Of a stretch of 36,459 nt of DNA, positions 6,790-33,874 are shown in pieces. Under the pieces are notes generated by a model, which worked only from the letters and a program-made list of their open reading frames with translations, did not search any database and was not told the DNA's origin. The stretch spans positions 1 to 36,459 of the forward strand of contig JAPLTJ010000046.1 in assembly GCA_026398175.1 (NCBI GenBank). Direction: 5' to 3'. The position numbers and the translations under genes are program-made. The first letter of the stretch is position 1; the number at the start of each line of letters is the position of its first letter. The DNA is from Verrucomicrobiia bacterium. Its GTDB lineage: Bacteria > Verrucomicrobiota > Verrucomicrobiia > Chthoniobacterales > UBA6821.

Positions 6790-7479
6790 ATGAACAAAAA
6801 AATCCATGTTCCAAAAAACGAGTTGCCTCGCGAGCGGCTCTCTGCGCATGGTGCGGAGACGTTACGAGATGTTGAGTTGTTAGCGCTTTTTTTGCGGACA
6901 GGGCGCGTAGGGAGGCATGTTCTTGAAATAGCAGAAGATTTACTTTGTGAGTGGGGATCGCTTCGACGTTTGGCTGGCTGTTCTCTGGAGGAGTTATCAC
7001 AAATAGGAGGGATCGGTCCTGCTAAAGCAGCGGAGCTGAAAGCTGCTTTTGAAATGGGAAGGCGCATGACGAATGTTGAAACGCAAGCGCCGCTTTTAAA
7101 AGAGGGTAAGGAAATCTACCGCTTTATGAGTCCGCACCTCCAACTGTTGCCCTACGAGTCGCTTTGGGTGCTTCTTTTAGATGCGCGCTTTCGGCTGCTA
7201 GAGCGCAAAGAAATTTCTCGTGGAAGTCTCACGCAAAGCATCGCTCATCCTCGGGAAGTTTTTAAATGGGCCATTGCAAAACGGTCTTATGCCATTGCTC
7301 TTGTTCACAATCATCCCTCGGGCGATCCGGCTCCTAGCAAATCCGATATTAGTTTTACGAAGCGTCTCTCTCAAGCAGGTGATTTGTTACAGCTGCCGCT
7401 CATTGATCATGTCATCATTGGTACGGCCACGCTCGACCGCGCACCCTATTATAGTTTTTTTGAAGCGGGAATGCTCTAG
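6790..7479 (+). CDS. radC: RadC family JAB/MPN domain protein
   Basis: This is a 229-residue RadC protein. An N-terminal helix-hairpin-helix-like part contains LPRERLSAHGAETLRDVELLALFLRTG and QIGGIGPAKAAELKAAFEMG. The C-terminal JAMM-type metal site LVHNHPSGDPAPSKSD gives HxH...S..D. RadC function is still debated; it is often linked to DNA repair or natural transformation. I take the ATG at 6790, which gives the usual MNKKIHVPKNELPRERL beginning; the longer frame from 6730 would start inside the upstream palindrome and add an atypical hydrophobic leader. The TAG stop is part of the CTAG end of a palindromic element at 7476. Confidence 0.92.
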   Translation: MNKKIHVPKNELPRERLSAHGAETLRDVELLALFLRTGRVGRHVLEIAEDLLCEWGSLRRLAGCSLEELSQIGGIGPAKAAELKAAFEMGRRMTNVETQAPLLKEGKEIYRFMSPHLQLLPYESLWVLLLDARFRLLERKEISRGSLTQSIAHPREVFKWAIAKRSYAIALVHNHPSGDPAPSKSDISFTKRLSQAGDLLQLPLIDHVIIGTATLDRAPYYSFFEAGML

Positions 7480-7619
7480 TACATTGTAAATTCTACTATT
7501 GCGGCGAAGAGCTGCGTTGCGCCGGTGCTCGACTCGTCGAGTATTTCCATATACACTCCTCGTCTGTGCGCCGTCGCGCCTTGCTCTTCATCCGCACTAG
7601 CGAATTTCCAATGTACTAG
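7476..7619. repeat. Core-bearing palindromic element 1
   Basis: The ends are CTAGTACATTGTAAATTC (7476-7493) and GAATTTCCAATGTACTAG (7602-7619), inverse with one mismatch. Near the centre the plus strand reads CTCGTCGAGTATTTCCATAT then ACACTCCTCG. The same core, on either strand, occurs in the leuS insertion at 15380-15519 and in the element at 23908-24205. The element begins in the radC stop codon. The 402-base gap 7480-7881 contains this element, the next one and little else. Confidence 0.8.
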
Positions 7620-7802
7620 CCCGAATATTTCATGGTAAATCTATTACGGCTTGCGGAAGACCCATGCTTACTGCGTTGGACTCGAATTTCGATTTGGGCG
7701 GTATGAAACATACAGCCACTGCATCGAAATCCTTCGTCCGCCTTCTAATCATGGGCCTTGCGCGGCGCCTCACTACGATTTACCATGAAATATCCGGGCT
7801 AG
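7616..7802. repeat. Palindromic element 2, abutting element 1
   Basis: The ends are CTAGCCCGAATATTTCATGG (7616 onward, continuing TAAAT) and the inverse CCATGAAATATCCGGGCTAG ending 7802, preceded by ATTTA. It shares its left CTAG with the right CTAG of element 1. Inside, GAAGACCCATG and CATGGGCC are partly complementary. The interior core differs from element 1, so it may be a different family that uses the same CTAG ends. Confidence 0.75.
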
Positions 7803-7823
7803 ACTTTACTTGGAAGTTTTCTA

Positions 7824-10179: not shown

Positions 10180-10331
10180 CTGGATTCCAGCGTTCGCTGG
10201 AATGACGAAGTGTGATGATGAAGCTTTTATTGCAAAAGGATATCCTTATGCGCGCAGAAATAAGAAGCTAACGTCGTTGTTATCTGCATTAACAAAAGCA
10301 CCGTCATTCCAGCGAATGCTGGAATCCAGCG
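10180..10331. repeat. Composite repeat, type II copy (F)
   Basis: Two palindromes, ATTCCAGCGTTCGCTGGAAT (10184-10203) and ATTCCAGCGAATGCTGGAAT near 10306-10325, are separated by about 100 bases. The spacer resembles that of the copy at 32957-33157 (GTGTGRTGAT...TTTTATTRC...AAGAAG) and not the middle of copies A, B, C and E. It makes up most of the 386-base gap 9990-10375 after the terminator. Confidence 0.65.
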
Positions 10332-10375
10332 GCTGTCTGTACAAACATTGAGAGCTAATCAATAAAAAAACTCAC

Positions 10376-12125: not shown

Positions 12126-12308
12126 GACGTCATTCCAGCGAACGCTGGAATCCAGCGGCCGTCGATTGGAGTTTAATTGTTTATGAAAGTAAGATTTCTT
12201 TCATTTTATTAGAAGTTTTCATTTTCTTCTGTGAAATCATATCGCTTTTACGAAACCAAAACTAAAGATCCACATTCTCCTGGATTCCAGCGTCCGCTGG
12301 AATGACGG
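12126..12308. repeat. Composite repeat element, copy E
   Basis: This lies between lpxB and the Gfo/Idh gene (a 231-base gap). The palindrome ATTCCAGCGAACGCTGGAAT at 12132-12151, the conserved middle with CTTTTACGAAACCAAAACTA and the palindrome ATTCCAGCGTCCGCTGGAAT near 12284-12303 match copies A-C. The outer terminal repeats are not recognisable, so this copy is decayed or lacks the outer parts. Confidence 0.7.
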
Positions 12309-12354
12309 TAATGTAATTGAATTTAAGCTAGTGGCAATTTTGGTTTGTTGTTTT

Positions 12355-14483: not shown

Positions 14484-17156
14484 TCAATTCACCACAATAT
14501 TGACGAGTCGTCCTGGAACAACAATCACTTTTTGAATTTGCTTATCAGCGAGGTGAGGGGCAAGTGAAGCGTCTTTCAGGGCGGCTTGCTCGACTTCTTC
14601 TTTGCTTGCTGTTGTAGCGAGAGTAAGGCGTCCGCGGACTTTGCCATTCACTTGAAGAACGTAGGTTGTCTCTTCGAGGAGTAAAAATTTTTCATCCCAT
14701 GTGGGCCATGTTGCTTGAGAGGCCGAAATCCCTATTTTTTGAAGAGAGAGAAAAGGAGTGCTCAACTGCATCCAAAGTTCTTCCGCAAGGTGAGGCGCGA
14801 ATGGGCTCAGCAAGCGGAGCAAGGTGTGAAGGGCTTCCAAGGGGCATGGCTTAGCTGCTGTGAACTCATTGACAAAGACCATCATCTGCGCGATGGCAGT
14901 GTTGAACGAAAGCACCTTGATGTCATGAGTGACTTTTTTGATCGTGGCATGGACGACTTTTTGTTGAGCAGGGGTGAGTGGAATGTCAGCGATGTTATTA
15001 GAAACAGTCCAAGCATGTGTTGCTGAATCTTGCTGCATCCCGAGGCGCCAGACACGAGCGAGGAATCTATAAATTCCTTCGACTCCGGTGGTGCTCCACG
15101 GCTTTCCATGTTCCAGAGGGCCCATGAACATTTCGTAGAGACGCAAGGCATCAGCGCCATACTGCGAGATGACTTCTCCTGGGCTAACAACATTGCCGCG
15201 GCTCTTGGACATTTTTTGTCCATCGCTCCCAGCAATCATCCCTTGATTGACGAGGCGCTGAAAGGGTTCGCAGGTGGTGAGGTGACCCAAATCAAAAAGG
15301 GCTTTGTGCCAGAAGCGAGCGTAGAGCAAGTGGAGAACGGCGTGCTCGGTACCGCCGATGTAAATATCCACACCGCCACGCTTCTTTGAAAACTCTACTG
15401 CTGCTGCGAATTGCTGCGTCGCATCGGTGCTCGCGTCCTCGAGTACCTCTTGTACACTGCGGTGCTGCGCGCCGCTGACTCCTGGTGCTTCGCTAGCATC
15501 AGCGAGTTTTGAAAGAAGCTTTCTGTCTGAGGCATTTCCCCCCATCCAATAAGTCTCCGCATCTTTTCCGATAAAAGATTTTTTATTGTGAGGATCGCAG
15601 AAGCGCAAATAGTACCAGCATGAACCGGCCCATTGAGGCATGGTGTTGAGTTCCCGAGTAGCCGTTTCTGAATAACGAACCCATTCTTTGGCCTTGGCCA
15701 GAGGAGGCTCTGCGGTTCCTGTTGGGCGGAAGTCTTCCATCTCGGGTGGCTCCACGGGAAGTTCTTGTTCGGAAAGGCCACGATGCTTTCCATTTTCCCA
15801 AACAATCGGAAACGGTTCTCCCCAATAGCGCTGGCGTGAGAAGAGCCAGTCACGAAGCTTGTATTGAATCTTGCGACGGCCGCAGGAATGCTCCTCCAAC
15901 CAGTTGATGATTTTATTTTTACCTTCCGCTGCTGTTGCTCCATTGATGAGAGGCGAGTTGATGGCAAGGTCGTTTTCGATAACAGTGCGTATCGGAAGAT
16001 CAAACTGCTCCGCAAATTCTTTGTCGCGCTCATCGTGAGAAGGAACAGCCATGATCGCTCCCGTGCCATAGCTCATCAGGACATAGTCGGCGACCCAGAT
16101 AGGAAGGGCTTCGCCGTTGATCGGGTTGATAGCCTCAATGCCGAGGGAAATGCCTGTTTTTGTTTTGGCTAAATCGGTGCGCTCAAGATCGCTTTTTGCA
16201 TTGCAGCTCTTGCGGTAGTCAGCAAGGGCTTCTGAGGCTATTCTGAGTTCATCAAGTAAAGGGTGCTCTGGAGCTAAGACAACGTAGGTAGCTCCGTACA
16301 AGGTGTCAGGGCGAGTTGTGAAAACCGTGATGGTTTTTTCTGGCTGATCTTTGATTTTGAAAACAATCTCAGCTCCTTCGCTCCGTCCAATCCAGTTGCG
16401 TTGAAGTTGTTTGATGGAATCAGGCCAGTTGACTTTTTCAAGATCTTCGATCAGACGATCGGCGAGCGTGGTGATACGAAACATCCATTGACGCATCGGA
16501 CGACGCTCGACAGGAAATCCGCCAACTTCACTTTTTCCATCAATGACTTCTTCATTGGCTAAGACCGTTCCTAATTCCTGGCACCAATTGACGGGAATGT
16601 CCGCCACGTACGCGAGGCGCACAGCATCTGCATCAGCACCGTGGTAGGTTGAGAGTGGTTCTATTTTTTTTGTCGCTGGATTGAACCAAGCGTTGTAGAG
16701 CTGTAAAAAAATCCATTGAGTCCATTTAAAATATTCTGGATCGGTCGTGCTGACTTCACGAGACCAGTCATAGCTAAATCCCAGCTGTTGCAATTGGGTG
16801 CGAAAATTGCCGATGTTTTTCTTCGTTGTTTCCCGAGGATGTTCTCCTGTTTTAATCGCGTACTGTTCTGCCGGAAGGCCAAAGGCGTCCCATCCCATCG
16901 GATGAAGAACGTTAGCACCTTTTAAGCGATGATAGCGCGAGAGAATATCGGTAGCCGTATATCCAACGAGATGCCCGACGTGAAGTCCTTCACCGCTCGG
17001 GTAGGGAAACATGTCGAGGATGTACTCTTTTTTTTGAGCAGGATCGAAATCAGGATCGCCAGGATTTTTAGCGCGAAAGGCATTCGAGCTCAGCCAATGG
17101 TGTTGCCAGCGGGGTTCAAATTCGGGAAAGGGGTAGGAATGCTGAGGTGTGGACAT
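14484..17156 (-). CDS. leuS: Leucyl-tRNA synthetase with in-frame palindromic insertion
   Basis: This class I synthetase charges tRNA-Leu. From the ATG at 17156 it has 890 residues. It has the HIGH-type motif [14 protein letters not shown], the CP1 editing domain ([20 protein letters not shown]), the [10 protein letters not shown] segment, [21 protein letters not shown], and [11 protein letters not shown]. There is no leucine-specific domain before KMSKS. Between YWMGG and GGVDIYIGG, where other LeuRS have only a few residues, there are about 47 extra ones (residues about 546-593, from KLLSK to EFSKK). They are encoded exactly by an inverted-repeat element at 15380-15519. The frame stays open, so the enzyme is probably functional. 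The longer start at 17186 adds residues from an upstream repeat and is rejected. Confidence 0.96.
15380..15519. repeat. Core-bearing palindromic element inside leuS
   Basis: The ends GCTTCTTTGAAAACTC (15380-15395) and GAGTTTTGAAAGAAGC (15504-15519) are inverse with one mismatch. The interior aligns with element 1 at 7476: CTACT.....TGCG.A...GCT early on, then GGTGCTCG, CTCGAGTA, TACACT and GCGCCG in the same order. It adds about 47 codons without a stop. This resembles Rickettsia palindromic elements in design, not in sequence. Confidence 0.85.
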
Positions 17157-23907: not shown

Positions 23908-24205
23908 CTAGAGGGTGTCTTGAAAATGGATAAAATTGATGCAGTACAAGGAGCGAGAAGCACAGCAGAGGAGTGTATAATACCATCTCCCTAAAATAAC
24001 TGGACCATCTGACTTGTTATTTTGGCGCTGAGCTTCGTTGTCAGATCTGGCGTTATGTTCGCATAGCGCTGCACTCTTCCGCCTTGCTCAACACCAAACT
24101 TCCAGCGTCTTATTTTGGGGAGATGGTATAAGTAATACTCGACGAAGGAGAGCATCAGAGCGACGATGTAATGCGCGATTTTAGTTTTTTCAAGACACCC
24201 TCTAG
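23908..24205. repeat. Core-bearing palindromic element 3, split by a nested palindrome
   Basis: The ends CTAGAGGGTGTCTTGAAAA and TTTTCAAGACACCCTCTAG are inverse. Its core is divided: AGAGGAGTGTATAA lies before and AAGTAATACTCGACGAAGG after the inner element at 23981-24128. Without the inner part it reads GTGTATAAGTAATACTCGAC, close to the core of element 1 (GTGTATATGGAAATACTCGA). It fills the 305-base gap between the AttH-like gene and the SDR gene and supplies the SDR's TAG stop. Confidence 0.8.
23981..24128. repeat. Inner palindromic element nested in element 3
   Basis: TACCATCTCCCTAAAATAA (23981-23999) faces TTATTTTGGGGAGATGGTA (24110-24128). It is flanked on both sides by TAA, consistent with a 3-bp target duplication. 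Inside is TGCACTCTTCCGCCTTGCTC, which recalls the interior of element 1 (ACTCCTCG...GCCTTGCTCTTC), so inner and outer may be distant relatives. Confidence 0.75.
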
Positions 24206-28128: not shown

Positions 28129-30048
<1,920 letters not shown>

Positions 30049-32956: not shown

Positions 32957-33157
32957 TGGAATGATCAACTCTGTATCGACGGTCTCCTGGTTCCTGCCTT
33001 CGCAGGAATTACGTACCAGCGTCCGCTGGAATGACGGGGTGTGGTGATAGAATTTTTATTACGCAAAGATAGCTCTTCTGCTCGTAAGGATGAAGAAGTA
33101 ATGTAATTGTACTTTCACTAAAAAATAACGTCATTCCAGCGGACGCTGGAATCCAGA
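32957..33157. repeat. Composite repeat, type II copy (D)
   Basis: The palindromes TTCCTGCCTTCGCAGGAA (32991-33008) and CCAGCGTCCGCTGG lie near the left. About 100 bases of spacer similar to the copy at 10180-10331 follow, then ATTCCAGCGGACGCTGGAAT (33133-33152). The last palindrome overlaps the 3' end of plsC. The middle part of type I copies is absent. Confidence 0.7.
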
Positions 33158-33874
33158 AGACTGCCGATTTTTATTTCTTTGCTTCGCGGCAATCCTCTCC
33201 TGGGCTGTCATTGGTAAATCATCATCACAAAGTTGAAATCGCTCGCAAAGCTCTTGCTGCAAAGCAGGAAAAGCAGCATTGAGTTTTTGTTGAAAAGAGT
33301 GGAGTGCTTCATTGCGATTGGTTGCGTCTAATGTGGGAGGAGCAATCGCTTTTCCAACAATGATCCAGAGAGGAGTGCGGCGGAACCAAGCATGTTTGAC
33401 ATAAAGCCGATCGGTGCCCAGCACGACGCAGGGAATCACGGAGGTTTGGTTAAGAAAACTAAAACTTGCTAGGCCTGGCTTCATCGTCGCTAGCTCTAGG
33501 ATGGAAGCGGTTCCCGAGCGAATACCTCCTTCAGGAAACATGCCAAGTGCTCGGCCTGCAGCAAGAGAGGCTCTCATTTTTTTTAAAGCGTGACGATTGC
33601 TGGCTGCTTTTTTTCCTAAGCGATCGATAGGAATAACGCGGAGGCATGAAAAAAAGCGAGCGCTCCAAGGATGCTTAAAGAGCTCATCCATGCCGATCCA
33701 ATCGAGAGCACGTGGGAAAAAAGCACTGAGCAGGGGCGGATCAAAATGGCTGATGTGGTTCGAAGCCATGATGAGGGGACCCGTTGCAGGAGGCCCCTCT
33801 AAGACCACAATATGAACGCGACAAAAAAAACGAAAGATTACTTGGGCTAAAAGACTACAGCAAGTGTAGAACAT
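33131..33874 (-). CDS. plsC: 1-acylglycerol-3-phosphate acyltransferase-like (PlsC family)
   Basis: This 247-residue acyltransferase has the HX4D motif SNHISHFDPPLLS near residue 39, RVIPIDR near 78 and the acceptor-binding FPEGGIRSGT near 112, a GG variant of the usual FPEGTRS. An N-terminal hydrophobic segment follows from FYTCCSLLAQVIFRF. It should make phosphatidic acid in the inner membrane. The start is six bases after the ald stop. The last residues (SSGFQRPLE) and the TGA stop are encoded by a repeat palindrome, so the original C-terminus has been replaced or extended. Confidence 0.88.
   Translation of the reverse strand: MFYTCCSLLAQVIFRFFCRVHIVVLEGPPATGPLIMASNHISHFDPPLLSAFFPRALDWIGMDELFKHPWSARFFSCLRVIPIDRLGKKAASNRHALKKMRASLAAGRALGMFPEGGIRSGTASILELATMKPGLASFSFLNQTSVIPCVVLGTDRLYVKHAWFRRTPLWIIVGKAIAPPTLDATNRNEALHSFQQKLNAAFPALQQELCERFQLCDDDLPMTAQERIAAKQRNKNRQSSGFQRPLE

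Follow-up and report, generated by a model that had tools for sequence, protein, structure and literature searches.

The leucyl-tRNA synthetase gene (leuS) of this genome contains, in frame, a 146-nt, near-perfectly palindromic segment that is very probably one copy of a non-autonomous, genus-specific mobile palindrome, hereafter family A, which survives within genes by virtue of open reading frames. In the window (the whole 36,459-nt stretch of DNA analysed here), leuS occupies positions 14484–17156 of the minus strand and encodes 890 amino acids from the ATG at 17156 (TIGR00396, 962.9 bits; cut-off 548); the ORF as listed starts upstream of this codon, at TTG 17186. The element lies at 15377–15522 (plus strand; covariance model R1, 136.7 bits, E 1.4e-33). 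Its terminal inverted repeat consists of a left arm at 15380–15395 (plus strand), complementary at 15 of 16 positions to the right arm at 15504–15519 (minus strand), and 108 nt separate the two arms. A preliminary description of this DNA had reported an in-frame palindromic repeat at 15380–15519, bounded by a 16-bp inverted repeat and adding about 47 residues, in what looked like a PVC bacterium. The repeat is real, its arms are as described and the host belongs to the Chthoniobacterales (Verrucomicrobiota); the element, however, runs slightly beyond the arms and amounts to 49 codons.

In the protein, the inserted stretch (KLLSK...EFSKK, about residues 542–592) sits between YWMGG and GGVDIYIGG and is read through without a stop, in the frame of the element designated '- frame 1' on the leuS strand. 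The LeuRS of the sister species (G005) reads YWKNVDLYVGG contiguously without the insert residues, so the possibility raised earlier that close relatives all carry them fails; residues 1–548 and 605–900 of the present protein directly abut there. The net difference is 56 rather than 49 codons because the loop itself is seven residues longer in this species. The LeuRS proteins of two further members of the genus (G001 and G003) are likewise short at this site, more distant genera have four or five residues plus GGVD, and the insert position corresponds in Thermus thermophilus LeuRS (1h3n) to that between residues 530 and 532, immediately ahead of VDQYIGG. Judging from these alignments, the insertion site is a naturally length-variable loop. 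The flanking loop is longer here than in every same-genus relative compared. A recombination tract was considered as the source of the longer loop, and no clear block of foreign sequence was found around the site. An AlphaFold2 model of LeuRS (23 sequences; mean pLDDT 80) matches known LeuRS structures in structure comparison, and residues 542–592 form its sole long stretch with pLDDT below 50. The insert peptide would be carried as a low-confidence, probably exposed loop of the host protein. The cell probably translates the element as 49 extra amino acids, which the enzyme would then tolerate.

Full copies of family A measure 146 nt, with a core of about 108 nt flanked on either side by an arm of about 19 nt. 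This core forms an imperfect palindrome of its own, and the whole unit folds as a single hairpin (z −4 to −8; for the leuS copy, −4.1 on the mRNA strand and −5.2 on the other strand). Most copies possess terminal inverted repeats with arms of about 16–20 nt. A BLAST search of the same genome with the leuS segment returned at least 42 matches, two of which were the query and a short palindromic match to itself; nearly all of the about 40 others had E values of 1e-12 or better, well above what chance would give. The covariance model R1 retrieved at least 118 copies from this genome (G000), at least 126 from the sister G005 and at least 56 from G002, and the low-copy members of the genus contained at least 24 (G003), 22 (G001) and 7 (G004), all of these genomes being draft metagenome bins, for each of which up to 150 candidates were scored. 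The core sequence is therefore not confined to the leuS site, a point on which the preliminary description had staked its interpretation. Family A is present in six out of six members of the genus, and none of 141 other Chthoniobacterales genomes gave a match. Plasmids gave no match, viral contigs gave none to one exact 23-base core pattern, and no Rfam family matched within the window. A second full copy, intergenic, lies at 7475–7620 (plus strand; R1, 140.7 bits), where a related element had already been pointed out at 7476–7619. The kinship proposed for 23908–24205 holds in part: this intergenic stretch (minus strand) is a degenerate copy recognised by its arms, of which only the halves at 23910–23980 and 24134–24204 match family A (BLAST, E 7e-11 and 1e-7), and its loop holds an unrelated palindrome. 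In the low-copy genomes, neighbouring copies in head-to-tail arrangement were observed at G003 C136:2394-2685, G004 C113:4427-4709 and G004 C28:3040-3308.

For the counting of frames, a copy was regarded as coding when the ORF spanning it extends 60 codons or more in each direction, as is true of 27 of the 58 distinct copies retrieved from this genome. Across all the genomes sampled, 42 copies are spanned in this way; 31 are read in one plus-orientation frame, 10 in one minus-orientation frame and 1 in another. The contiguous G005 sequence sampled, 1.14 Mb in all, contains 71 copies; 23 lie within ORFs, 21 of them in the same two combinations of orientation and frame. The two frames encode two unrelated 49-aa peptides, CAPEAPGTSSPAASFER being one example of the shared +2-frame peptides. 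In the same contiguous sequence, the length of 146 nt modulo 3 is kept in 20 of 23 coding versus 17 of 48 other copies (p=4e-5), a difference partly built into the ORF definition. Random insertion would be expected to disrupt a gene in about two of three phases, and no disrupted gene was seen among these 71 copies. Five candidate split genes in G005 turned out, from their flanks, to be intergenic copies located after aconitase-, ribosomal protein S9- and FabI-like ends or before a BioA-like start (names assigned by eye, one being left without a name). The earlier notion of a selfish repeat that persists because its reading frame is open fits these 23 in-frame and zero disrupting copies, and also the younger age of coding copies described below.

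The other copies that lie within proteins, whose existence had been left for checking, do so in frame and in unrelated hosts. According to NCBIfam and Pfam, the hosts include LeuRS, MetRS, IspH, aconitase, Tgt, MiaB, SecA, NuoG and the delta (HolA) and tau subunits of DNA polymerase III, as well as UDP-galactopyranose mutase, a TsaC-type synthase, a GATase/phosphoribosyltransferase protein (PurF-like), glucan phosphorylase, squalene/phytoene synthase, phosphopantetheinyl transferase and glycosyltransferases. For many hosts, the match to the profile is interrupted around the insert and continues beyond it; the inserts of DnaX and the TsaC-type protein are located downstream of the matched domain. 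Some coding copies carry further changes of their own. A CTG trinucleotide expansion was found within the copy of the PurF-like gene (L003:1471-1628), and an in-frame 78-nt insertion of yet another kind within the copy at L021:1394-1617.

Comparison of the two sister genomes reveals both filled and empty sites. At clean empty sites the net gain is 147 nt; identical bases precede and follow the element at about 7 of 11 such sites, and about 4 of 11 need a substitution (by eye). Among 65 full-length copies, the flanking bases are equal in 34 (52%) against about 27% expected (p=1e-5), an excess made somewhat less striking by the T-rich flanks, which raise the chance identity of flanking bases. 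Together with the net gain of 147 nt, these equal bases support the duplication of 1 bp of the target upon insertion; no longer target duplication was seen. The age of the copies was assessed with ORFs extending at least 30 codons on each side, only at sites whose orthologous site was found (about half of each genome), and with shared copies entered for both genomes. On this basis, the sister's site is empty for 12 of 15 coding copies of this genome and 11 of 14 of G005 (23/29 in total), whereas for non-coding copies it is empty in only 6 of 21 and 3 of 16, respectively, with 28 of 37 being shared (Fisher p=0.006 and 0.003). This fits coding copies being younger than non-coding ones. Coding copies make up 23 of the 32 that are empty in the sister. 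The expected coding share of new copies is about 65–75%, if 85–90% of the genome is assumed to be coding and one third of the phases tolerated; ORFs of 120 aa or longer cover 74%. The observed share is near this expectation, and thus new in-frame copies in the two genomes look nearly neutral at first and would be lost later.

The hairpin is maintained while its sequence changes. Subfamilies differ in their arms (for example, TAGACTTCTTTC, AGAACCTGTCTTC and TAGACCTCTTGC), and the arms stay complementary. In 22 aligned copies, 94.5% of the cells are standard pairs, and two-sided changes in 25 of the 46 consensus pairs account for 140 cells versus 12 with one-sided changes, where cells count sequences rather than events and are inflated by subfamily descent. 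Shuffles gave a mean of 38.7 two-sided cells, with none of 500 reaching 140, and slid structures gave 11–30. The few one-sided changes may point to one of two processes, selection on a DNA hairpin or copying between the arms. Differences of 28–35% were found in several pairs of orthologous shared copies whose flanks are mostly near 90%; arm-to-arm conversion or replacement by another copy could each have produced them.

Further palindromic families occur in the genus and are amplified to differing extents by species. An 81-nt family has at least 40 matches in this genome and at least 40 in G005; it was found in frame inside coding family-A copies at G000 L017:1488-1714 and L183:1501-1727, the orthologous G005 copies of which are without it, so that these are nested in-frame insertions. 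The palindrome in the hairpin loop of the degenerate family-A copy (23980–24129, plus strand, 150 nt) belongs to another family, C, with members of 150–160 nt and at least 40 copies in this genome; it probably spread recently, because many of these copies are 93–100% identical. A 186-nt palindrome at 7617–7808 directly adjoins the family-A copy at 7475–7620 and represents a family with at least 40 members in both G003 and G004 (the best 40 scored of 231 and 269 first-look candidates, respectively). CGTC-type REP palindromes (GTCATTCCnGCGnAnGCnGGAATC) are located at 1150–1182, 2876–2917, 10180–10343, 12126–12321, 29688–29898 and 33127–33170 of the window; their numbers are 109 in this genome, 41 in G001, 7 in G005 and 0 in G002, G003 and G004.

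A mobile palindrome with these properties probably works as follows. Machinery acting in trans would insert the 146-nt unit at many T-rich sites with the apparent duplication of one target base, through which 147 nt, or 49 codons, would be gained. As it happens, each strand of the unit offers one open frame; in-gene copies in either open phase would leave the host protein readable, and copies in the other phases would be lost together with the carrier cells. In-gene copies would be mildly harmful and disappear over time, while intergenic copies would persist and decay.

The machinery could be of more than one kind. A classical MITE, with a DDE transposase acting on the terminal inverted repeats, is one possible version, although we would not expect it to prove the right one. 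Shortness, terminal inverted repeats, many copies, no coding capacity of its own and a target duplication all agree with it. However, bacterial DDE MITE families have a fixed-length target site duplication of 2 bp or more, while the duplication in our case seems to be 1 bp alone; moreover, the terminal arms differ among subfamilies and are still self-complementary, and a half-element search over about 1.8 Mb from two genomes listed mostly short or split fragments and nothing that obviously combined such ends with a transposase in a longer element. A more novel reading, which we regard as less likely than not, is that family A represents a new class of element that moves as a DNA hairpin with a 1-bp duplication, preserves its palindrome by arm-onto-arm copying and is tuned to readability on both strands, which would let it spread through essential genes, with several unrelated families depending on common machinery. 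A further version of the machinery, which we consider doubtful, is single-stranded hairpin DNA moved by a Y1 (HUH) transposase in the REP/RAYT manner. The Y1 transposase domain PF01797 was found in exactly the three high-copy genomes (L268, L269 and L266) and is absent from the three low-copy ones; however, six genomes yield a p of about 0.05 only, family-A copies flank none of the Y1 genes (0 matches in five Y1 loci), the 186-nt family is abundant in genomes without the gene, and HUH transposition normally leaves no duplication. A RAYT was set aside as the mobiliser, its distribution being suggestive and nothing further, and the CGTC-type REPs as the partner of Y1, since their counts of 109, 41, 7, 0, 0 and 0 do not fit the Y1 distribution.

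In-gene copies might be retained for their usefulness, for example in regulation or protein interaction, and the pairing kept by two-sided changes would agree with this. We find it improbable: most coding copies are absent from the sister, nothing evident is common to the host proteins, and two-sided changes of pairs also occur in the copies shared by both genomes, nearly all of which are non-coding. It is more improbable still that the segment behaves as a small intron would, being excised from the RNA, or as a bypassing element that the ribosome skips. The RNA strand does fold into one long hairpin, as is possible for such elements, but removal would make the frame irrelevant, whereas frame and length are constrained, two open frames are used and no disrupted gene was seen among the 71 contiguous copies. 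An ordinary protein-level loop or lineage-specific domain with a coincidental likeness to intergenic DNA is scarcely credible, even though the YWM/GGVD site varies in length among relatives, as more than 100 occurrences of the same DNA, with matching ends and in two frames, are spread over unrelated genes and spacers. Inteins carry splicing motifs with terminal Cys/Ser and Asn and usually exceed 100 aa; an intein was rejected, the insert being just 49 aa long and its two frames giving two unrelated peptides.

A non-autonomous mobile palindrome of this kind has a wider bearing. Most known coding palindromes come from Rickettsia and Wolbachia, whose inserts are reported as shared by orthologs, which makes their mechanism and cost hard to study. 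Family A offers a second, apparently independent case in another phylum, in which sister species provide both filled and empty sites, and the ancestral state, the target rule, the tolerance of phases and the rate of loss become directly measurable. Equally, it is relevant to how mobile DNA can add peptide segments to essential enzymes.

Among the known systems, REP elements are described as 20–40 bp palindromes with a GTAG or CGTC tag (PMC3733652), from which family A differs in its 146 nt and its ends without such a tag. In nematomorph mitochondria, protein genes contain long inverted repeats whose two arms change in concert (PMC6649704); that account does not present them as one dispersed family sharing a core, in contrast to the one mobile family here. 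ERIC/IRU and the 107-bp Correia element are MITE-like and form in-frame fusions; TA ends and target duplications are reported for them, and a mainly intergenic location is ascribed to bacterial MITEs (PMC2229807). Family A resembles them as a small palindromic repeat with open frames, at times fused to genes, but 23 of its 32 sister-empty copies are coding and its duplication seems to be 1 bp. The closest likeness is to the Rickettsia palindromic elements (RPE; Ogata 2000, 2002), palindromes of 105–146 bp that form long hairpins, occur as several families per genome and lie in frame in conserved genes (PMC2229807, PMC10969869, PMC3767692). Family A, with 146 nt, 46 consensus pairs, one long hairpin and in-frame copies in unrelated conserved genes, shares with them its size, hairpin, multiple families, non-breaking insertions and a mobiliser that is not known. 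The Wolbachia palindromic elements (WPE; Ogata 2005), as mentioned in later papers (PMC2229807, PMC3767692), are also coding palindromes in protein genes, in a different phylum, and are compared here by description. By description and behaviour, rather than by assignment to their class, family A appears to work like RPE and WPE. On the one hand, Rickettsia orthologs carry the RPE insert at the same locus, as in R. japonica genes (PMC3767692), and RPEs are said to lose repeat identity with time (PMC6649704). On the other hand, the coding copies of family A are mostly empty in the sister (23/29), its pairing is maintained by two-sided changes, and it inhabits one verrucomicrobial genus of another phylum, where two frames are used, one per strand.
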